From positions 1 through 21,564 of IMG/VR virus record IMGVR_UViG_3300027792_000061: DNA of 21,564 nucleotides. One strand, given 5' to 3'. The DNA is from a virus. Shown piece after piece: positions 694 to 13,229 of this stretch. The notes below the pieces were generated by a model, which was given only the letters and a program-made list of their open reading frames with translations, was not told the DNA's origin and made no database searches. The number at the start of each line of letters is the position of its first letter. Position 1 is the first letter of the stretch. The position numbers and the translations under genes were made by a program.

Positions 694-1632
694 ATGACCG
701 ACAAAGACGACACCATGCCCATGCTTACCCACCACGCCATGGGCTTCAAGCAACCAAAGAAGAAGATCGATGATGACGGTGACGAGTTCGAAGAGCCTCG
801 TCCAGAGCCGGAACCCATGTCCATCGATCCGTTCATCGAAGAGATCGCCAAGCTCAAAGCTTCGCAAAGTCCGGCGGTACGTGACACCATTGAACGAGCC
901 CCATGCTTCGGTCGCAACTGGTTCATCGACTCTGTGATCGCCACCGAGAACGACACAGACGTGGGCGGAATCTGTGACCAGTGGGACTGTGATCTGAGAT
1001 CGCTGTGTGAGTTGGTCTACACCAGAGCTTTGGGCGTAGAGCAGAAGAAGGAAGAGTCACCTGCGTCCTACCAGGACACCCAGGAGATCCCACCTCAGAC
1101 CATAGGCAAGAACAAGCGTAAGAAGATCAAGGTGAAGGTTAGGAAGTACACCCGCTTCCCCTACGTAGACCAAGGAAGGCCGATCGACAAGTTGGCAACA
1201 TTGATCTGGGAACTGCTTGGGAGCCCTCCTGCTCTACCTGATTCCTGGATGTTCCCTTCGGTAAAAACCAAAGAAGATCTAGAACTTGCGCCAAAGCAAT
1301 TTAGGGATCGCTTTGGTTCTGGAGTTATGGTATCAAGGCGATCAAACTACCATCAGTTCTTTAGAGATGGTTTTCACTTTTTGCGCTTGTGGATGACAGC
1401 GCCTGGCGGCGGATGGATGGATATCTCAGGCGACCTCGCGAAAGCGGTCCTAAAGGTCGTGCCCACACTGAAGATCGAGCATCCTCCTCAAGGCATGCTG
1501 CGCAAGCGGTACAGGTTCTACCCACACCGAGTCTACATCCATCGAAAGGCGCAAGTTGATCGTTTTGCCGAGGTGTTTGAGCATCTCGGGATCATGCCAA
1601 TGGCGGACCAAGAACAGGAGAAGGGTCAATGA
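694..1632 (+). CDS. Unrecognised 312-residue protein with a CFG/Cys module
   Basis: Family not recognised. The N-terminus is charged and low in complexity (residues 18-42, acidic and Pro-rich). Residues 70-110 hold a Cys-rich segment: CFG at 71-73, then C94, C99 and C105, the pattern C-aromatic-G...C-x4-C-x5-C. A similar module lies in the C-terminal extension of the ssDNA-binding protein at 6577-7962. A basic stretch (residues 139-152) follows, then a globular C-terminal half rich in aromatics. No good ribosome binding site precedes the ATG at 694, and in-frame ATGs at 715 and 721 are alternatives. The gene ends in a 4-nt ATGA overlap with the next. Codon use in about 1259-1390 is visibly AT-richer than in the flanks. 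The Cys module suggests metal or nucleic-acid binding, which is inference. Confidence 0.8.
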   Translation: MTDKDDTMPMLTHHAMGFKQPKKKIDDDGDEFEEPRPEPEPMSIDPFIEEIAKLKASQSPAVRDTIERAPCFGRNWFIDSVIATENDTDVGGICDQWDCDLRSLCELVYTRALGVEQKKEESPASYQDTQEIPPQTIGKNKRKKIKVKVRKYTRFPYVDQGRPIDKLATLIWELLGSPPALPDSWMFPSVKTKEDLELAPKQFRDRFGSGVMVSRRSNYHQFFRDGFHFLRLWMTAPGGGWMDISGDLAKAVLKVVPTLKIEHPPQGMLRKRYRFYPHRVYIHRKAQVDRFAEVFEHLGIMPMADQEQEKGQ

Positions 1633-2303
1633 AGATCAAGGGTTTCAACTCCAAGGAACAGAAGTGCTACGACGTGCTCTCAGACGGTGAAGTTCACAAC
1701 ATCGCTGAGATGAAGAAGAAGTTCGCCAAGGACGCCACCGAGCGTTGCAAGGAGACCTACGAGAAGGGCTGGGGCGAAGAGGAAGTCGACGCCATGGCCC
1801 AGAGCATGGTCCGCAACAGCATCCGCCGGTTGATTCGTGACGGCTGGGCTGAGAAGTCAGCCTATGGCACTTACAAGCTGACCACGACCGGCAAGCGGTG
1901 GGTCAAGGATGGCAAAGAGGCCACCAAGTCCTTCGGCACCAAGCGTGGTCGCAAGCCGATGACTGACGAGGAGAAGGAAGCGGCTCGCAAGAAGCGGGAG
2001 AAGGAGGCCAAGGAGGGCGGCGGCAAGAAGAAAACAACTGCCAAGGCCAAGTCCGCTGCGAAGACCAAGAAGACTGCCAAGGCCAAGCCTGCTGCCAAGA
2101 AGACTGCCAAGGCCAAGCCCGCTGACAAGAAGGTGAAGAAGGTCTCCATGAAGAAGGCCGTCAAGACGGCTGATGCCCGCAAGCACAACGGGGTGGGCAA
2201 GAAGAAAGCCGAGGAGGCCAAGAAGCGGGCAGCCAAGCAGGCTGTCAAGGACAAGGCCGAGCAGGCTCGTGAGCGTGCTGAGGTCGAGACCGACACCAAC
2301 TGA
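1629..2303 (+). CDS. Linker-histone-like protein: winged helix plus Lys/Ala/Pro-rich tail
   Basis: The 224-residue product has two parts. Residues 1-95 read as a winged helix-turn-helix: helix FNSKEQKCYDVLSDG, a helix around EVHNIAEMKKKF, a recognition-like helix VRNSIRRLIRDGW and a beta wing YGTYKLTTTGKRWV. Residues 105-110 (KRGRKP) match an AT-hook core. Residues 110-224 are a highly basic Lys/Ala/Pro tail with repeated TAKAKPAAKK-type units, ending in a mixed-charge helix. A winged-helix globule followed by a K/A/P tail is the architecture of eukaryotic linker histone H1, and K/A-rich tails also occur in bacterial HU- or H1-like proteins. The start overlaps the upstream stop as ATGA, so translation is probably coupled. 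DNA binding is a strong inference; a role in genome compaction or transcription is unproven. Confidence 0.85.
   Translation: MKIKGFNSKEQKCYDVLSDGEVHNIAEMKKKFAKDATERCKETYEKGWGEEEVDAMAQSMVRNSIRRLIRDGWAEKSAYGTYKLTTTGKRWVKDGKEATKSFGTKRGRKPMTDEEKEAARKKREKEAKEGGGKKKTTAKAKSAAKTKKTAKAKPAAKKTAKAKPADKKVKKVSMKKAVKTADARKHNGVGKKKAEEAKKRAAKQAVKDKAEQARERAEVETDTN
2071..2130 (+). repeat. 30-bp tandem repeat in the basic tail
   Basis: Two adjacent 30-bp units, 2071-2100 and 2101-2130, differ at only two positions and encode the repeated KKTAKAKPA(A/D) tail unit of the linker-histone-like protein. A more diverged partial copy precedes them (about 2035-2070). The unit is a whole number of codons, so copy number can change by slippage or recombination without breaking the reading frame. 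Confidence 0.85.
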
Positions 2304-2334
2304 TCTACTCTGCCTGACAACCTGGGAGATCGTC

Positions 2335-2823
2335 ATGGAAGATACTGCTGCCTCGAGAGTTGGCTCGCCCTATACTGTTGTCCGCACCATCAAGGAGACT
2401 TCTGTTGGTCCGGAGGAAGAACCTACCGTGAAGATCGCGGCTCTGGTTCAACAGAGGAGACGAGACGACGGTAAGCTGAGCCGCGAGTTCGTTTCAATCC
2501 GATGCGATCTTGGGAAGAAGGTCATGTTCTTCTCCGTGGCAGCAGCCAAAGATCTGATCTCAGGTCTGACCCAGGTGGTTCCAGAGGCAGACGTCGAAGA
2601 CGCTCGCATGCGTCAGGAGTTCGAATCCAGGCGCAAACGTGACCAGGAGGACTGGGAGAAGCGATTGTCTGGAGAGGCCGGCAACGGTAGCAGAACTCAT
2701 CGAACAGGAAAGACGGAACGAGACAAGAAGAAAGACAGCTACAAGTCTCCAGAGAAACGAAAGCAAGAGAAGTCTGAACGTGACCGAGAGATTCGGTCCA
2801 ACATGCAGAAGAGCACAAGATAG
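2335..2823 (+). CDS. Unrecognised 162-residue highly charged protein
   Basis: Not recognised. The open frame extends upstream into the preceding gene, but ATG 2335 with GGGAGATC at 2324-2331 is the preferred start because it leaves a 31-nt gap and uses the recurrent initiation pattern of this phage. The N-terminal half (about residues 1-85) looks globular with alternating strands (TVKIAALVQQ, REFVSIRCDL, KKVMFFSVAAAKDLI). The C-terminal half is a long, strongly charged, presumably helical or disordered stretch rich in Arg, Lys, Glu and Asp. The gene ends at the TAG that forms part of the next ribosome binding site (TAGGAG), so the two genes are tightly linked. Confidence 0.8.
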   Translation: MEDTAASRVGSPYTVVRTIKETSVGPEEEPTVKIAALVQQRRRDDGKLSREFVSIRCDLGKKVMFFSVAAAKDLISGLTQVVPEADVEDARMRQEFESRRKRDQEDWEKRLSGEAGNGSRTHRTGKTERDKKKDSYKSPEKRKQEKSERDREIRSNMQKSTR

Positions 2824-2832
2824 GAGATCATC

Positions 2833-3255
2833 ATGGCTACCAAGGCCAAGGCGGGCAAGAAGAACGGCAAGAAGGAGCTGTCCCCGGTCCAGAAACTGCA
2901 GAAAGAGATCGATGATCTGGAAAACCAGATGTACGATCTCCCAGATGTCCCTGACTTCTACCCCAACTGGGACGTCATGGAAGGCTGCAAGACGGAGCTG
3001 AAGAGCTTCCAGAAGTCCCTCAAAGCAGCTGGCATCCAGGTCGATGCCTCGCAATACCTGTTCCTCTGCCGGCAGCTGGTTGACGCTGCCAGGGCTCTCG
3101 AGAAGGACATGAAGGCCGAGGAGAAGAGGTTCGCTCAGAAGAACAAGGATCTGCAGAAGCAAATCAACGACAAGAACAAGCAGATCTTCAAGATCGAAGA
3201 TCAGGAGCGCAAGAACACTAGCGCTCGTCCTGCACCCACGTTCACGAATCTCTAG
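2833..3255 (+). CDS. Unrecognised 140-residue coiled-coil protein
   Basis: Family not recognised. The start is fixed by AGGAGATC at 2822-2829. The N-terminus is a short Lys/Ala/Gly-rich basic arm (residues 1-17, TKAKAGKKNGKK). A first amphipathic helix follows (SPVQKLQKEIDDLENQMYDL), then a Pro-containing linker (PDVPDFYPNW), and a long C-terminal heptad-like helix (about residues 75-128) rich in Lys, Glu, Gln and Leu. The composition suggests an oligomeric coiled coil. No enzyme motif is seen. The neighbours are basic or zinc-binding small proteins upstream of the polymerase. Confidence 0.8.
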   Translation: MATKAKAGKKNGKKELSPVQKLQKEIDDLENQMYDLPDVPDFYPNWDVMEGCKTELKSFQKSLKAAGIQVDASQYLFLCRQLVDAARALEKDMKAEEKRFAQKNKDLQKQINDKNKQIFKIEDQERKNTSARPAPTFTNL

Positions 3256-3267
3256 CAGGAGGGTCAC

Positions 3268-3549
3268 ATGCCGTTCGTCGTCGACGTGCAGTGTGAGTGT
3301 GGACACGTCCGTACAATTTGGCTCAAGAACAGCAAGGCAGAACCTGACGCCGACGACACGGCATGCCCCAAGTGCAAGAGCACCAAGTTCGTTCGCATCG
3401 TCGGAGGCAGTGCCTACCTCCAGAGCAACGACCCAGAAGTTCGTAACGCCATGCTCAAGAAGAGGAGCGAAGATCACTCTCGTGCCAGCTTCAAGGACAA
3501 CCTCGAGCGTGTGAAAGACTACGCTGGCAAGCGTGGAGTGAAGCTGTGA
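3268..3549 (+). CDS. Small zinc-ribbon protein (93 residues)
   Basis: Residues 9-36 form a rubredoxin/FmdB-like zinc ribbon: C9-x-C11-G, then C33-PK-C36 followed by a beta strand (STKFVRIVGG). The first knuckle has one spacer residue instead of two. The C-terminal third is a charged helix (RASFKDNLERVKDYAGKRG). AGGAGGG just upstream is close to a perfect Shine-Dalgarno and fixes ATG 3268. Zinc-ribbon proteins of this size are often nucleic-acid or protein adaptors. The specific role is unknown. Confidence 0.85.
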   Translation: MPFVVDVQCECGHVRTIWLKNSKAEPDADDTACPKCKSTKFVRIVGGSAYLQSNDPEVRNAMLKKRSEDHSRASFKDNLERVKDYAGKRGVKL

Positions 3550-3561
3550 ACGGAGAATGAA

Positions 3562-3855
3562 GTGAGCGTAGACTACGATCGTCGAAGGTGTGAGGAGTTC
3601 GTCCAGCGAGTCCTTTTCCAGGGGGACCCGTTTTTCGTACGGTTCTGGATGCACGCCAACGGTCTCGTAGATGGCAGACCCTTATACGATGGCAGACCCT
3701 TCTACTGCCTCGACGCCCTCTACGTTGAGTGGCACAACATGAGCCTGTGGAACAAGCAGGCTGTGCTCTTCCTGATGATTCCGCCTCTCGATCGAATCGC
3801 CTCTGAGAAGGCACAAGAACTGTGTGGCCTGGCAAGACAGCAGGAGCCTTTGTGA
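3562..3855 (+). CDS. Hypothetical 97-residue protein with internal six-codon duplication
   Basis: Not recognised. A GTG start is preceded by a CGGAGAA ribosome binding site. The protein is rich in aromatics (FVQRVLF, FFVRFW, YCLDALYVEWH) and ends with a helical segment. Codons 37-48 are a tandem duplication (DGRPLY then DGRPFY). The TGA stop overlaps the GTG start of the polymerase gene as GTGA, so this small gene may be translationally coupled to the polymerase. No catalytic or metal-binding motif is evident. Confidence 0.75.
   Translation: MSVDYDRRRCEEFVQRVLFQGDPFFVRFWMHANGLVDGRPLYDGRPFYCLDALYVEWHNMSLWNKQAVLFLMIPPLDRIASEKAQELCGLARQQEPL
3670..3705 (+). repeat. 18-bp in-frame tandem duplication
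   Basis: Positions 3670-3687 and 3688-3705 are identical except for one base (the last base of the fifth codon, Leu versus Phe). The unit is six codons long, so it keeps the reading frame. It looks like a recent slipped-strand duplication. Confidence 0.9.
3842..3846 (+). promoter_or_regulatory. Ribosome binding site that sets the polymerase start
   Basis: AGGAG lies 5 nt before GTG 3852. It favours GTG 3852, which overlaps the upstream stop by 4 nt, over the in-frame ATG at 3822, which lies inside the upstream gene and lacks a comparable site. Confidence 0.75.
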
Positions 3856-5831
3856 TCACACCCATCGGACTGAATGATCCGCTGAAAGCTAGGACATGGA
3901 AAGGTGTGGCAGGGGGAGTCTACACCCTGATCGACACCATGCCACTGTGGAAGCACTTCCACAAGCAGCTCATGACACGAAAGCAGGTGGCCTGCGACAC
4001 AGAGACCAACAGCCTGGATTTCTCTGGCGGCCACATCGTAGGCGTCAGTTTCAGTTGGGGTGCAGAGAACAGCTACTACATCCCTGTTCGGCACGAGACC
4101 GGAGAGCAGCAGCTAAAGATCGAAGACATCATCGATGACCTGAAGGAATTCTTCGATCAAGAAGACTTGATCACAATTTGGTTCAACGCCAAGTTCGATC
4201 TTCACTTCTACCTGAACGAAGGGATCACACCTCGAGGAGTGGTCCACGACGTTCTGATTCAGCACAAGCTGCTCAGAGAGACTGGCTCTGCCGAGTTGAA
4301 GGAACTGTCCAAGCAGGAGATTGATCCCAATTGTGACATGTGGGAAGTGGCGATCGACGATTTCCGCACCAAAAAGGGTCGCGAGAAAATCCCTGCGCCA
4401 ACGCCGACCAATCCCAAGCGCACGCTGATGCGCAAGAAGAAGAATGTCCATTACGGGATGGTCCCGATCAACATGATGACGCCCTATTCGGCGTCAGACA
4501 CCCACTACACCTGGGCTCTCTGGAAGAAGAAGATGCCCAAAGTGGCCGAGAATGAAGATCTGCGCAACCTCTACCTCATGGAGAGCCAACTGCTCTGGGT
4601 TCTCCTCGAGATGGAACACAGGGGGGTGTACATCAGCCGCCAGTACCTTGAGAAAGCAGGACCGGACCTCGAGGCTGAAGCCAAGAAGTACGAAGAGTCA
4701 GCACTGAAAAAGCTTGGGGCACAGATCAACCTCGCTTCCAACGATGAGCTGGCCAAAGCTTTTCAGCGTCTGAAGATTCCACTCACGAAGAAGACAGACA
4801 AAGGGAAGATCAGCCTCGACGTCGAGGTCATGGAGAAACTCGCTATCAAGTACGATGTGTGCGAGGATATTCTTCACTTCCGACAGACCAAGAAGCTCAA
4901 GAGCACCTACGTTGAGAACATCCTCAGCAAGCTCGATCCCAACGACTACCTTCATTGCACCTACAACCAAAATGTGACCACGGGCCGCATGTCGAGCCAA
5001 GGTCCCAATTTGCAGAACATACCTGCGAAGACCAAGACGATCCGAAAGGCTTTCGTCTGCCCAGACGGATACATCATGGTCTTCATTGACTACTCGCAGG
5101 TCGAGGTCCGACTGACAGCTCACTACAGCCAAGATCCAGTACTCCTCGACTGCTACAATGTCACCAAGCGTGACGTTCACACCAACACCCTCTGCGAGGT
5201 GTTCGGCTACGACTACGATGAAGTTCTGAAGATCTTGGACGACAACGCCCATCCCAAGTTCGAGGAAGTGTCCCTCCTTCGAAAGGTAGCCAAGACAACC
5301 AACTTCCTTGTGATCTACGGTGGCGGCGCCGAAAACCTGCGGGCTAAGATCAGCTCCCCCAAGAGGCAGTTCGCCAAAGATCAGTGTCAGAAGTTCATCG
5401 ACCAGTACTTCGCCAAGCTCCGGCAGCTTAAGCGGTGGATCATCAGAACGTCTGGCCTAGTTCTGACAGACAAGTACGTCCAGAACTACTTCGGTCGCTA
5501 CCGCCGGTTCGAGGAGTTGAACAACCCAAGGCTGGAGAAGTGGGAGCGCGAGCGCTGCCAGCGACAAGCGGTCAATTTCCTGATTCAGGGAACCTGCGCT
5601 GACCTGTTCAAGGTGGCCATGGTCCGGGTCGGCGACATCCTGCGCGGGATGAGATCTCGGCTCGTCATGACGATCCACGACGAATTGGTGTTCTACATCC
5701 ACAAGAACGAGTTGCCGGTCCTCAACCCAATCGTAAAGACTATGGAAGACTGGAACTTCTCGATTCCCATCATCGCCGAGGTCTCCTATGCCCGTGATTC
5801 TTGGGCAGGGAAAAAAGCCCTCCACATGTGA
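3852..5831 (+). CDS. polA: Family A DNA polymerase with 3'-5' exonuclease domain
   Basis: Replicative phage DNA polymerase of the Pol I/T7 family, 659 residues from GTG 3852. The DEDDy proofreading exonuclease is visible: Exo I D49-x-E51 (CDTETNSLD), Exo II D116 (NAKFDLHFY) and Exo III Y212-x3-D216. The polymerase motifs are complete: motif A D413 (FIDYSQVEVR), motif B R477-x3-K481-x3-F485-x3-Y489-G, and motif C H609-D610-E611. QGTCADLFK (about 579-587) matches the conserved Gln region. There is no 5' nuclease domain, so the length fits an exo-pol protein. The Phe at the E. coli F762-equivalent position (F485) is the usual residue. The start overlaps the upstream stop as GTGA. Neighbouring ssDNA-binding and RecA-like genes support a replisome role. 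Confidence 0.97.
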   Translation: MITPIGLNDPLKARTWKGVAGGVYTLIDTMPLWKHFHKQLMTRKQVACDTETNSLDFSGGHIVGVSFSWGAENSYYIPVRHETGEQQLKIEDIIDDLKEFFDQEDLITIWFNAKFDLHFYLNEGITPRGVVHDVLIQHKLLRETGSAELKELSKQEIDPNCDMWEVAIDDFRTKKGREKIPAPTPTNPKRTLMRKKKNVHYGMVPINMMTPYSASDTHYTWALWKKKMPKVAENEDLRNLYLMESQLLWVLLEMEHRGVYISRQYLEKAGPDLEAEAKKYEESALKKLGAQINLASNDELAKAFQRLKIPLTKKTDKGKISLDVEVMEKLAIKYDVCEDILHFRQTKKLKSTYVENILSKLDPNDYLHCTYNQNVTTGRMSSQGPNLQNIPAKTKTIRKAFVCPDGYIMVFIDYSQVEVRLTAHYSQDPVLLDCYNVTKRDVHTNTLCEVFGYDYDEVLKILDDNAHPKFEEVSLLRKVAKTTNFLVIYGGGAENLRAKISSPKRQFAKDQCQKFIDQYFAKLRQLKRWIIRTSGLVLTDKYVQNYFGRYRRFEELNNPRLEKWERERCQRQAVNFLIQGTCADLFKVAMVRVGDILRGMRSRLVMTIHDELVFYIHKNELPVLNPIVKTMEDWNFSIPIIAEVSYARDSWAGKKALHM

Positions 5832-5894
5832 AATCGACATGGCCGATTGTCCAGTAAGACCCACCTCGCCTGTATAAAGGGCAAAGGGGACACG

Positions 5895-6536
5895 ATGGAC
5901 AAAGACTTCAACGGGCTCGCAACACCACTCCAAGTCAACGACAGAGACTGGGGCAACCCAATCGCTGACGATGTTCAGATCGACAACGGGAACCTGGATC
6001 AAGAGTTCCTGGGCCAGGCTGAGAAGTATGCCTGGTGGGCGTTCCTGACCGAGCACGCAAAGGATCAGGTCAATCAGATCAAGTCGGAGCTGGACGTTCT
6101 CTACGCTCGACTCGACCACAAGGTCAGGACCAAGGCACAGATCGCTGCCGTCGATGCCAAGACCAATAAGCAGGTTCCGATCAAGTACACCGAGAAGATG
6201 GTCGAGAACGAAGTCACCACCTCCACTGAGTACCAAGAGCTGCTGTCCCGATACAACAACGCCAAGAAGCAGGCAGGGCTCGCTACCGCTGGCATGATGG
6301 CAATGAACCAGCGGCGAGACATGCTGCTGCAGCTGGGCGCCAACTACCGGACAGAGGGACAGGCTGATCCAATTATCCTGAAAGAAGCCGCCCGCGAGAA
6401 GGCAGCTCGCTACGCAGAGGAGCGTGAACGACGGAAGGAAGAGCGCAAGAGCAAGGCTGAGATGGCTAGCAAGGCCCAGGAAGAGTCAACCACTACCCCT
6501 CCAGCACGCAAGCCTCCCATGAAGAGGCCCCAGTAA
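5895..6536 (+). CDS. Coiled-coil protein, possible recombination mediator or replication accessory
   Basis: Family not firmly recognised; 213 residues from ATG 5895, which has AAAGGGG upstream. The longer TTG start at 5847 is less likely. The central part is helical with heptad character (AKDQVNQIKSELDVLYARLD, TSTEYQELLSRYNNAKKQAG) and is followed by a strongly charged Arg/Glu/Lys helix (about residues 155-192). The tail is Pro/Lys-rich, with TPPARKPPMKRP near the end, resembling the PPGKKPP motif in the next two recombination proteins. It sits between the polymerase and the gp32-like protein, where a UvsY-like mediator or a replisome accessory would be plausible; that is inference from position and shape only. 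Confidence 0.8.
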   Translation: MDKDFNGLATPLQVNDRDWGNPIADDVQIDNGNLDQEFLGQAEKYAWWAFLTEHAKDQVNQIKSELDVLYARLDHKVRTKAQIAAVDAKTNKQVPIKYTEKMVENEVTTSTEYQELLSRYNNAKKQAGLATAGMMAMNQRRDMLLQLGANYRTEGQADPIILKEAAREKAARYAEERERRKEERKSKAEMASKAQEESTTTPPARKPPMKRPQ

Positions 6537-6576
6537 CCCAATCTGCCGCTGAGCAGGTAACCCAAAGGAGATCGAA

Positions 6577-7962
6577 ATGGCTCTGAAAGCTGACATGGCG
6601 AAAGCCCAAAAGAAGGCGGCAGAAGAAGCTGCACGAGCAGCAAGCTTCGGCACCTTCGGCACCCTCAAGTGGTGGAAGCCCAAGAAGGGCAAGAACAAGA
6701 TCAGAGTAATGCCACCTTGGACCGGTGAGGGGCACAACGCCTATCAGTGGTGGCGGGAGGTCTGGGTACACTGGGGGATCGGCCCCGACGACGACAACAA
6801 GCAGAGCGTGGCTTGCCTCGCCAAGACTCCCGAGGCCAACAACCAGCCCTGCCCGATCTGTGAAGAGGTCGAGCGGCTTCGCAAGTCCGGTGATCCGGCG
6901 GACCTCGAGTTGGCCAAGCAGATCAAGGCCAAAATGCGGGTCTACGCCAACATCATCGATCTCAAGGACCAGACGTGGACCGCTGATGAGATCGAGGAGC
7001 TACAGGCTGCTGGCGTGGAGGAGAACAACCTCCCCGCTGAAGGCGATCCCAAGATCCAGGTCTACAGCTTCGGCTCTGGCGTCTTCAAGGAGCTGCTGGA
7101 CTACTACACTGACGTGATCGACATCACCGATCTCGACGAGGGTCGCAGTGTGCTTCTCACTCGCGAGGGTGATGGGATCAACACCAAGTACCGCTGCCGC
7201 ATCGAGCAGGAGTCGACGAGGGCCCCGGTGCCGGATGACGAGCCCAAGCTGCACAGCCTCGACAACATCATGCAGCTCAAGACGGGTGCCGAGCTGAAGG
7301 CGATCCTGGAAGGAGTCGATCCGGAAGAGGTCAAGAAGCTCGAAGCCAAGAAGACTGGAAACAAGGACAAGGCCAACAAACTCGCCGCCGCCAAGAAGGC
7401 ACAGGAGGAGTCGGAGGACGAGGAAGAGACCTCCGAGGAGGAAGTAGAGGAAGAGACCTCTGCCGAGGAAGAAGCTGAAGAAGAAGCTGAGGCCGAGCCG
7501 GAGAAGCCCGCTACCAAGCCTGCCGCCAAGGCCCCTCCAGGCAAGAAGCCGCCCACCAAGAAGGATGAGGACTGGCCGCCGGTCGATGACGAGGGCTTCC
7601 TCGACTTCGACAAGCTCACGGATGACCAGATCGAGGACAAGCAGAACATCGCAGTCCAGGACACCAACGGCACCTCTGTCTACGTGCAGTGCTATGGCGC
7701 AGCGCGTCAGAGGGACGAGGACGACGAGAACTGCTCCCAGAACTGCCCCCTCTTCAAGCGCTGTGGTGAACGCATTGCAGCTCTGGACGCTGCTGAGGCC
7801 GCCGCCAAGGCGAAGAAGGCACCCGGGAAGCCTCCTGGCAAGCCGGCCCCTGGGAAGGCCCCTGGGAAGGCTCCTGGCAAGCCGGCACCCAAGGACGAGG
7901 GTGACGGTGACGTCGACGAGCTGGAGCGCCAGATGAAGAGCGCAGTCAAGGGGAGGAAGTAG
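6577..7962 (+). CDS. T4 gp32-like zinc-containing ssDNA-binding protein with extended C-terminus
   Basis: The N-terminal 260 residues resemble T4 gp32. After a Lys/Ala helix (1-22) comes the strand KWWKPKKGKNKIRVMPPW, then candidate zinc ligands H65, C80, C92 and C95 (ACLAKT...PCPICEEV), close to gp32's H64/C77/C87/C90 order and spacing. An OB-fold core follows (VYANIIDLKD, IQVYSFGSGVFKELLDYY). Residues 278-309 are strongly acidic, like the partner-binding tail of gp32, but here the acidic stretch is internal. Beyond it lie a PPGKKPP motif (320-326), a small domain with C372, C386, C390 and C396, and a PGK repeat (415-439). At 461 residues it is much longer than gp32 (301). The start has AGGAGATC. 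A strong terminator follows. Its expected job is coating ssDNA at forks and recombination intermediates. Confidence 0.92.
   Translation: MALKADMAKAQKKAAEEAARAASFGTFGTLKWWKPKKGKNKIRVMPPWTGEGHNAYQWWREVWVHWGIGPDDDNKQSVACLAKTPEANNQPCPICEEVERLRKSGDPADLELAKQIKAKMRVYANIIDLKDQTWTADEIEELQAAGVEENNLPAEGDPKIQVYSFGSGVFKELLDYYTDVIDITDLDEGRSVLLTREGDGINTKYRCRIEQESTRAPVPDDEPKLHSLDNIMQLKTGAELKAILEGVDPEEVKKLEAKKTGNKDKANKLAAAKKAQEESEDEEETSEEEVEEETSAEEEAEEEAEAEPEKPATKPAAKAPPGKKPPTKKDEDWPPVDDEGFLDFDKLTDDQIEDKQNIAVQDTNGTSVYVQCYGAARQRDEDDENCSQNCPLFKRCGERIAALDAAEAAAKAKKAPGKPPGKPAPGKAPGKAPGKPAPKDEGDGDVDELERQMKSAVKGRK
7819..7893 (+). repeat. PGK codon repeat in the ssDNA-binding protein tail
   Basis: A run of five Pro-Gly-Lys units separated by Pro/Ala (APGKPPGKPAPGKAPGKAPGK) is encoded by near-identical 12-bp DNA repeats, for example around 7847-7872. 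It makes a flexible, basic, Pro-rich linker before the acidic C-terminal segment. Confidence 0.85.
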
Positions 7963-7972
7963 CGCAGCCCAT

Positions 7973-8003
7973 CAGCAGGAGCGACCCCCCTCGTGACCTG
8001 CTG
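7973..8003 (+). promoter_or_regulatory. Hairpin upstream of the terminator, possible attenuator partner
   Basis: A perfect 7-bp inverted repeat, CAGCAGG (7973-7979) with CCTGCTG (7997-8003), encloses a 17-nt loop containing six consecutive C (7985-7990). The C run could alternatively pair with the six G (8015-8020) of the terminator 5' arm, so a switch between two RNA folds is conceivable. The regulatory role is inference. Confidence 0.4.
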
Positions 8004-8012
8004 TTAGCTGGG

Positions 8013-8066
8013 ATGGGGGGCGGGAGATCGTGGATGCCCTCCTCGCGATCCCGCCCCCCATTTTTC
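8013..8066 (+). terminator. Strong intrinsic terminator after the ssDNA-binding protein gene
   Basis: The 5' arm 8013-8030 pairs with the 3' arm 8046-8061 in a GC-rich stem of 16 bp with a 2-nt bulge. The loop is about 15 nt, and the 3' side runs into a T tract (8061-8065). It ends only 17 nt before the next start codon (8083), so it would separate the ssDNA-binding gene from the downstream recombination genes or act as an attenuator that lowers their expression. Confidence 0.9.
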
Positions 8067-8082
8067 TTGAAAGGAGTCAACC

Positions 8083-8280
8083 ATGTTGGTCGTTGTTTCG
8101 AAGATCAAAGCCATGGCCAAGGCCGCCGGTCTTCGCACCTCCCTCGAGTTCTGCGACAAGCTCAGCGAGGAAGTCCAAGCCGTCATCATCCAGGCAGCCA
8201 AGAACGCCAAGGCGGCCAAAATGAGCACGATCAAAGATCGGCACATGCCAAAGATCGTGCTCGAGGATCCGGAGGAGTAG
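8083..8280 (+). CDS. Small histone-fold-like protein (65 residues)
   Basis: A 65-residue product that reads as one histone fold. A short helix SKIKAMAKAAG (residues 6-16) is followed by a loop LRTS, a long central helix LEFCDKLSEEVQAVIIQAAKNAKAAKM (split here: 21-38 and 39-47), and then loop plus third-helix start STIKDRHMPKIV (48-59). The order and the KxxTIKxxH/D-type loop 2 resemble archaeal histones and the short bacterial histones known from Bdellovibrio, but with a truncated third helix and an acidic end (LEDPEE). AAGGAG upstream fixes the start. It lies directly after a strong terminator and immediately before a MazG-like gene. DNA binding and dimer formation are inferred. An unrelated helical small protein is the main alternative. 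Confidence 0.8.
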   Translation: MLVVVSKIKAMAKAAGLRTSLEFCDKLSEEVQAVIIQAAKNAKAAKMSTIKDRHMPKIVLEDPEE

Positions 8281-8667
8281 GTGAATCCCAAAGACTACGT
8301 CCAAGGAGTTCTCGTCACCGAGTCGCGTGACATGGCAGACATTGCCACTCGTGCCACTACGGTTCGAACCATCCGCCTGCTGCATGCAGCCATGGGGTTG
8401 GTCACCGAGGCTGGAGAGTTCCTTGATGCTGTGAAGAAGCACATCTTCTACGGCAAGGAGTTCGACAAGACCAACCTCGTCGAGGAGCTGGGAGATCTTT
8501 TCTGGTACATTGGCATAGCCTCTGATGTCCTCGACCGCTCCTTCGAAGAGATCATGCAGATCAACCACAACAAGCTCGCCGCTCGTTACGGGAAGGGCTT
8601 CAGCTCTCAGGCTGCCAACGATCGAGATCTTGCCAAGGAACGCAAGGTACTCGAAGAGAAAGAGTAG
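8281..8667 (+). CDS. MazG-like nucleoside triphosphate pyrophosphohydrolase
   Basis: A 128-residue all-alpha NTP pyrophosphohydrolase. The Mg-binding pattern is present: E43-x2-E46 in LVTEAGEFLDAVKK and E68-E69-x2-D72 in LVEELGDLFWYIG. This family hydrolyses (d)NTPs, and in some cases ppGpp, to NMP and pyrophosphate. Phage versions may adjust nucleotide pools or blunt host stress signalling. The GTG start directly abuts the upstream TAG stop, and GGAGGAG within the end of the preceding gene is its ribosome binding site, so the two are likely co-translated. The tail after about residue 105 is charged. Confidence 0.92.
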   Translation: MNPKDYVQGVLVTESRDMADIATRATTVRTIRLLHAAMGLVTEAGEFLDAVKKHIFYGKEFDKTNLVEELGDLFWYIGIASDVLDRSFEEIMQINHNKLAARYGKGFSSQAANDRDLAKERKVLEEKE

Positions 8668-12757: not shown

Positions 12758-13087
12758 GTGGAAGAGATCAACCTCGCCAACACTTCTACCCAACCCAGCG
12801 GAACGTGCCAGAACTGCCAGCAAAGACCAGCTACAACATTCTGGACTGGCACAGAAGGGACATTGGCGTTCGTTCACGGTATGTACCAACAGTGGTGCAT
12901 GGTCTGCTGCCTCAAGGAGCAACTGAGATACGCTCGTGAGCAAGCAGCCCGCATCCCAGAGATAGAGGCCCATCTGGCTCAGCTCGAGACCAAAGAGGAG
13001 GAAGTTAGTGGACGCACTACTGAAGATACTGGAGACGAGGGCTCCGACAGGGTGGTTCTTACCGTCTACAGTAAGGATGACGGTTAG
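12758..13087 (+). CDS. Small Cys-rich protein with C-terminal helix (109 residues)
   Basis: A GTG start 3 nt after the previous stop, with GAGGTGG as its ribosome binding site. CQNC near residue 17-20 and WCMVCCL near residue 46-52 make a probable four-Cys zinc site, followed by a long amphipathic helix (KEQLRYAREQAARIPEIEAHLAQLE). The last 30 residues are acidic and Ser/Thr-rich and lie in the 80-nt overlap with the next gene. The function is unknown; the knuckle pair suggests a treble clef. Confidence 0.75.
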   Translation: MEEINLANTSTQPSGTCQNCQQRPATTFWTGTEGTLAFVHGMYQQWCMVCCLKEQLRYAREQAARIPEIEAHLAQLETKEEEVSGRTTEDTGDEGSDRVVLTVYSKDDG

Positions 13088-13229
13088 CCAAATGCGAGTG
13101 TTGGAGCAGCGAGGCTACGTGGAATCATCCAGAGTCGGATCAAGAGTCATCCACTACCGAATAGTGCCACGCTGCAAGCTTCACGGTGAGAAGCTGCCAT
13201 GTGAGAAATGTCATGCCAGCACGATTTGA
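13008..13229 (+). CDS. Winged-helix DNA-binding protein with C-terminal Cys motif (73 residues)
   Basis: Residues 1-53 read as a minimal winged helix: helix MDALLKILETRAP, helix STVRMTVSQMRVLEQRGY and a beta wing ESSRVGSRVIHYRIV. A C-terminal segment with C56, H59, C65 and C68 (CKLHGEKLPCEKC) could bind zinc. The GTG start has an excellent AGAGGAGG site (12994-13001), which supports translation inside the end of the previous gene (80-nt overlap). An internal ATG at 13092 would lose the first helix. Winged-helix proteins of this size are often phage transcription regulators; target and role are not known. Confidence 0.75.
   Translation: MDALLKILETRAPTGWFLPSTVRMTVSQMRVLEQRGYVESSRVGSRVIHYRIVPRCKLHGEKLPCEKCHASTI

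Follow-up and report, generated by a model that had tools for sequence, protein, structure and literature searches.

A short alpha-3 histone, apparently of the bacterial-dimer-like type, and a winged-helix protein with a basic tail, encoded among the replication genes of a contractile-tailed phage

We analysed a 21,564-nucleotide stretch of viral DNA (IMG/VR record IMGVR_UViG_3300027792_000061, positions 1 to 21,564; hereafter the window). Its genes share at least 98.75% protein identity with a stretch of the 109.6 kb contig IMGVR_UViG_3300009082_000018 (G001). Because this near-identical contig, which also holds 41 tRNA genes, encodes tail-sheath and tail-fibre proteins, the window is taken as part of a contractile-tailed phage. 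Two plus-strand open reading frames (ORFs) concern us here, 1629-2303 (224 aa) and 8083-8280 (65 aa), and both exist as the original prediction had given them. That prediction had read the longer product as a linker histone H1-like protein and the shorter one as a single histone fold, and had placed both genes in the replication region. The placement is borne out by their same-strand neighbours, which encode PolA, a gp32-like single-stranded DNA-binding protein (SSB), UvsX/RecA, an SbcC-like protein and terminase, with MazG and an NYN nuclease also on that strand. An AGGAG, Shine-Dalgarno-like, lies upstream of 1629 with 8 nt spacing. Nonsynonymous divergence (dN) is well below synonymous divergence (dS) in both pairwise comparisons (dN 0.09 and dS 0.82 for the N-terminal 100 aa of the H1-like gene, window versus the relative G003; dN 0.40 and dS 1.26 for the histone gene, window versus the relative G002), and the codons of both genes are therefore, as judged from these alignments, under purifying selection.

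The main finding concerns the 65-aa product, whose gene, parts and 3' neighbour, together with a distant counterpart in a related contig, are as follows.

8083 to 8280, plus strand: stand-alone alpha-3 (bacterial-dimer-like) histone, 65 aa (phmmer, profile, AlphaFold2 and Foldseek)
8070 to 8076, plus strand: Shine-Dalgarno-like AAAGGAG of the histone gene, read from the sequence, 6 nt before 8083
8086 to 8124, plus strand: histone alpha-1 (aa 2-14), including K7, K9 and K13 (AlphaFold2 secondary structure)
8143 to 8214, plus strand: histone alpha-2 (aa 21-44; AlphaFold2 model)
8221 to 8244, plus strand: loop 2 and truncated alpha-3 (aa 47-54, MSTIKDRH; alignment, AlphaFold2 helix 52-54)
8248 to 8277, plus strand: short acidic C-terminal extension (aa 56-65; alignments)
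8281 to 8667, plus strand: MazG-like pyrophosphohydrolase, adjoining the histone gene on its 3' side (Pfam PF03819, 1.1e-7)
L099:1498 to 1695, minus strand: histone of the related contig G163, of a second and more canonical lineage (RKTIKAQD), directly after the terminase

When the 65-mer was compared with all PDB chains by phmmer, four prokaryotic alpha-3 histones came out best, with E-values of 1e-4 to 2.6e-3 (HLp 1e-4, HTkC 4e-4, HBb 2e-3). A profile built from three phage homologues matched HTkC at 3.7e-9, HBb at 8.5e-8 and HLp at 7.5e-6, the archaeal HmvA and HMf scored lower, and the good-scoring PDB matches were exclusively histones. In the AlphaFold2 model, based on a five-row alignment, alpha-1 spans residues 2-14, a long alpha-2 covers 21-44 and alpha-3 has three residues, 52-54 (predicted local distance difference test, pLDDT, 83.8). 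Its nearest PDB structures by Foldseek were HLp (9.6e-4), HTkC (4.1e-3) and HBb (4.4e-3), with target template-modelling (TM) scores of 0.75-0.80 and root-mean-square deviations of 1.5-1.9, and the best 50 matches all came from histone-fold complexes. Single-chain structure prediction and the matches to four solved alpha-3 histones thus uphold the short single histone fold that had been proposed, and on sequence and model together the 65-mer is a genuine histone, at a match level well beyond chance. Single-sequence scans of Pfam, NCBIfam and PHROGs gave it no identity, which is uninformative for such a short protein, and a search of named phages and plasmids returned no homologue. In a viral-protein structure library a few unnamed or uncharacterised proteins share a similar fold. 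An antisense ORF across the gene was rejected as a shadow of the sense codons, as the sense product matches histones and all neighbouring genes lie on the sense strand.

The alpha-3 histones and their subtypes have been defined by Schwab et al. (PMC11390915). The 65-mer has the alpha-3 of 3-4 residues typical of the class and is homologous to four of its members (profile E-values of 3.7e-9 to 7.5e-6). Its alpha-1 lysines K7, K9 and K13 are invariant across the phage and Elusimicrobiota homologues, are equivalent to K10, K12 and K16 of HBb, and have the same spacing as K11, K13 and K17 in the logo of bacterial dimer histones. The DNA contacts of HBb include S9, K10, K12, K16, S24, T53 and R57 (PMC11317129), and 7 of its 10 main contacts, mapped by alignment, are identical in the 65-mer (S6, K7, K9, K13, S20, T49 and R53). 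The residues of the HLp tetramer, R49, N53 and R55 (PMC12701072), correspond to N41, A45 and M47; since the face-to-face tetramer residues are absent, a dimer is expected. The RKTxxxD motif of bacterial dimers is missing from the window protein, where RxTxxxxD has degenerated to MxTxxxxH, as it has degenerated in the G002 homologue, but the motif is kept in G004 (RGTVKARD) and in the distant G163 (RKTIKAQD), hence our label. Overall, by sequence and model, the 65-mer is an alpha-3 histone, and it looks like one of a bacterial-dimer-like kind. After alpha-3 the window, G002 and G004 proteins carry a 10-residue, phage-specific extension, acidic at its end in the window and G004 and absent from the Elusimicrobiota histones; in the model it forms no helix (last-block pLDDT 58).

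Phage homologues of the 65-mer were found in G002 (75.8 kb contig, 58% identity), G004 (115 kb, 55%) and G163 (20.9 kb, about 34%). Between G001 and G004, 36-39 proteins are shared, and between G001 and G002 about 20; most of them are structural, with identities of about 40-70% among the matches listed, and a terminase segment of G163 is 77% identical. Given these shared proteins and the terminase segment, G001, G002, G004 and G163 are, as far as sequence tells, one phage family. The position of the histone gene varies within it: between the SSB and MazG genes in the window, before the homologue of the window gene 3562-3855 in G002, separated by about 31 kb from that of the H1-like protein in G004, and directly after the terminase in G163. 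In the tree, the window, G002 and G004 histones form one clade (89/92), and G163 stands apart, near HLp, with weak support; its histone scores 3.5e-4 and 21.2 bits against Pfam CBFD_NFYB_HMF, whose cut-off is 21.4. Since it falls outside the main phage clade, two acquisitions of the histone in this family are possible. The divergence among the window, G002 and G004 histones is about that of the phages' structural proteins, and this, together with their own clade, shows that the family has retained the gene. Just upstream of the histone gene, G002 encodes a 90-aa protein resembling a small winged helix (L012:1129-1401), and G004 has a homologue of the window gene 13008-13229.

The best cellular relatives found were two Elusimicrobiota chromosomal histones (L023 and L024, 40% identity over the alignment). 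Histones are present in 35 of the 150 Elusimicrobiota genomes; other histone-bearing phyla were represented by their PDB sequences only, and a closer cellular relative may exist elsewhere. An N-terminal stretch of 18 residues, LVVVSKIKAMAKAAGLRT, agrees with L024 at 17 positions. This agreement, the frequency of such histones in the phylum and a weakened R-D clamp, which could mark a non-canonical partner, would suit a histone directed at the host, one that forms heterodimers with a bacterial histone of the host, or takes its place, and so disturbs host chromatin and transcription. We consider this unlikely: the phage clade is not firmly placed with the Elusimicrobiota (support for the join is 41/10), and a terminase search for a prophage relative in that phylum gave nothing close and one distant match. 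A recent host origin of the phage histone is likewise unsupported, given the separate clade and the same 41/10 join. Two cyanobacterial "relatives" proved to be chance matches within a 313-aa protein.

We favour, as the probable explanation, a phage alpha-3 histone of the bacterial-dimer type that acts as an HU-like DNA bender, alongside a separate winged-helix DNA-binding protein. The identity of the histone follows from its sequence and predicted fold. Beyond that, we infer that the 65-mer would most likely form a head-to-tail homodimer, which would sit on the DNA backbone through its alpha-1 lysines and the edges of loops 1 and 2 and would bend DNA without sequence specificity, by analogy with HBb. 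It would then serve as the HU-like architectural protein of the phage in genome replication and recombination, replacing HU. No HU or IHF was detected in five phage records of this family, in which positive controls were. Several points weigh against this explanation. With a net charge of only about +1.6 and an acidic C-terminus, the 65-mer may bind DNA weakly; the window protein has lost the R-D clamp; the absence of HU and IHF rests on contigs that may be incomplete; and in G003, itself a fragment, no histone gene was seen and another gene occupies the syntenic place.

The product of 1629-2303 is composed as follows.

1629 to 2303, plus strand: winged-helix protein with a basic Lys/Ala tail (H1-like layout), 224 aa
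1629 to 1910, plus strand: winged-helix domain (aa 1-94), the portion conserved across the family (AlphaFold2)
1941 to 1958, plus strand: AT-hook-like KRGRKP (aa 105-110; alignment)
2028 to 2186, plus strand: Lys/Ala-rich disordered tail (aa 134-186, net charge about +20; AlphaFold2 pLDDT about 43-47 and composition)
2065 to 2132, plus strand: tandem repeat of 30 bp that codes for a portion of the tail (TRF; 2.3 copies, 94% matches)

The N-terminal winged-helix globule of the original prediction is confirmed by the AlphaFold2 model (residues 1-94, pLDDT about 87, 74-91 by block), with helices at 8-17, 25-43, 50-70 and 86-93 and strands at 74-76 and 81-84. Its tail is modelled as disordered with a low-confidence C-terminal helix. 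Of the linker histone architecture that had been claimed, the layout of a winged helix with a basic disordered tail stands and the kinship does not: neither PF00538 (linker histone) nor PF07432 (Hc1) matched any of four homologues even at E 1, no linker histone appeared in the Foldseek top 50, and other winged helices were nearest. The details fared similarly. The AT-hook-like KRGRKP is present at residues 105-110 and kept in G003, but is absent from G004 and from L021; the tail is partly encoded by the 30-bp repeat, and with 37 K, 25 A and only 3 P in residues 101-224 it is Lys/Ala-rich more than K/A/P. The L021 orthologue has 159 aa and is almost tail-less. With no H1 or Hc1 match, other fold neighbours, an unconserved AT-hook and a nearly tail-less orthologue, the protein falls, by sequence and model, outside the H1 and Hc1 families. 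In our favoured reading it resembles H1 by convergence, not descent, and would be a separate winged-helix DNA binder, in a regulatory or architectural role, whose basic disordered tail raises its non-specific affinity for DNA. In the window's gp32-like SSB (6577-7962) an acidic stretch precedes an A/P/K/G-rich tail, and the SSB of the same phages has a basic A/P/K/G tail as well, so low-complexity basic tails are habitual in these proteomes and not unique to the H1-like protein.

As to what such a binder might do, the strongest conservation in the family falls on the putative recognition helix, and the motif AQS.VRNS.RRL.RDGW is invariant in four homologues apart from one conservative change in L021. 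The Foldseek neighbours of the domain are PhiH1-repressor-like, MarR, MukE, T4 MotA and BlaI (best E 0.028), and the Pfam hints, all below cut-off, are PaaX, Mrr_N and MksE, with weak PaaX matches in all four homologues. A MotA- or repressor-type phage transcription factor, in which the tail is an accessory affinity tether and not a compaction domain, accords with these neighbours and is a serious contender, if somewhat short of an even chance; all Foldseek E-values exceed 0.01, too high to fix a superfamily, and three of the four homologues have a long, highly basic tail. This proposal covers the second protein only and is compatible with the favoured reading of the histone.

Co-occurrence of the two genes in relatives was the remaining part of the original prediction, and the answer is mixed. 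G001, which represents the same phage as the window, and G004 have both genes; just the H1-like one was seen in G003 and just that of the histone in G002, these last two contigs being fragments and G002 lacking the replication region. Such co-occurrence is compatible with a joint system but no proof of one. The winged-helix gene stays upstream of polA while the histone gene moves around the genome, and the 31 kb between them in G004 does not indicate a tight functional pair. A two-protein "chromatin", as the original prediction had proposed, is possible; in it the histone dimer would bend DNA, and the H1-like protein, lying over or between the histone-DNA units, would compact or protect the replicating phage DNA. 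It would have in its favour the presence of both genes in two lineages and a fitting layout of winged helix and basic tail; set against the changing place of the histone gene, the L021 orthologue without most of its tail and the lack of linker-histone homology, we hold it to be improbable. Its boldest form, an uncultured tailed phage lineage with a minimal chromatin of its own in place of HU, where a stand-alone histone of bacterial type bends the replicating DNA and a convergent H1-like winged-helix protein locks or regulates it, we rate just as low. Least likely of all is a place in the virion for either protein or both, where they would neutralise the packaged DNA. The basic tail would suit that role and a like suggestion has been made for moraphages (PMC12619734), but both genes lie among replication genes, outside the structural module, and the histone is only weakly basic.

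Some observations on these contigs stand apart. The 41 tRNA genes of G001 form one 4.7 kb cluster (G001:49616-54268, L063:9616-14268); G003 has 42, and G004 and G002 have none. The PolA ORF of L021 (5008-8394, 1128 aa) contains a long in-frame intein-like insertion (ending ...SYIGQGLLQHN before SCADLF), and at the start of the terminase ORF of G163 (L099:1717-3048, minus strand) lies a segment resembling the C-terminal part of an intein (...VLADSGLLVHN before CPDGVIL). At 2578 bp, the L085 match to the terminase is also unusually long.

Bacterial histones have been characterised only recently, and the phage histones so far reported are of a different type, predicted to bridge DNA. Known in phages are alpha-3 histones that carry a tetramerisation domain (PMC11390915) and, in moraphages, an Hc1-type protein (PMC12619734); our literature search, which left most subscription journals outside its scope, turned up no phage with a stand-alone histone of the bacterial-dimer type. 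A phage family that keeps a minimal stand-alone histone, with what looks like a second histone lineage in one relative, offers a simple system for studying the role of histones on a small, fast-replicating genome and whether phages pass histones from one bacterium to another.

Compared with known systems, the 224-aa protein shares a Lys/Ala-rich basic tail and a DNA-binding layout with linker histone H1, chlamydial Hc1 (PF07432) and the moraphage H1-like protein (PMC12619734), and with H1 also the winged-helix globule; it differs in having no family match, other winged-helix relatives and a variable tail. Among the histones, Elusimicrobiota L023 and L024 (40% identity) have almost the same N-terminal 18 residues as the 65-mer, but differ in their KKTLGAED motif, a cellular locus beside a nuoA-like gene, the lack of a C-terminal extension and a separate clade. 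The face-to-face histones HLp (9qt0) and HTkC (9f2c) are of the same fold and alpha-3 family and give the best single matches in sequence and structure; the 65-mer, unlike HLp (R49, N53, R55), is without the tetramer residues. The "phage histones" of Schwab et al. (2024, PMC11390915) are, like the 65-mer, alpha-3 histone folds in tailed phages in which RxTxxxD is absent. They carry a C-terminal helical tetramerisation domain where the 65-mer has a tail of just 10 residues, modelled with low confidence; unlike them, its relatives in G004 and G163 keep RxTxxxxD. HBb (Bd0055) of Bdellovibrio bacteriovorus (PDB 8cmp, 8fvx, 9ezz and 9f0e; PMC11317129, PMC11390915) is 34% identical to the window protein and 43% to its G004 homologue. 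Unlike HBb, the window protein is encoded by a tailed phage, has lost the R-D clamp, bears the 10-aa C-terminal extension and has a low net charge; common to both are the single histone fold, the truncated alpha-3, the alpha-1 lysines, the loop contacts and the absence of face-to-face tetramer residues.

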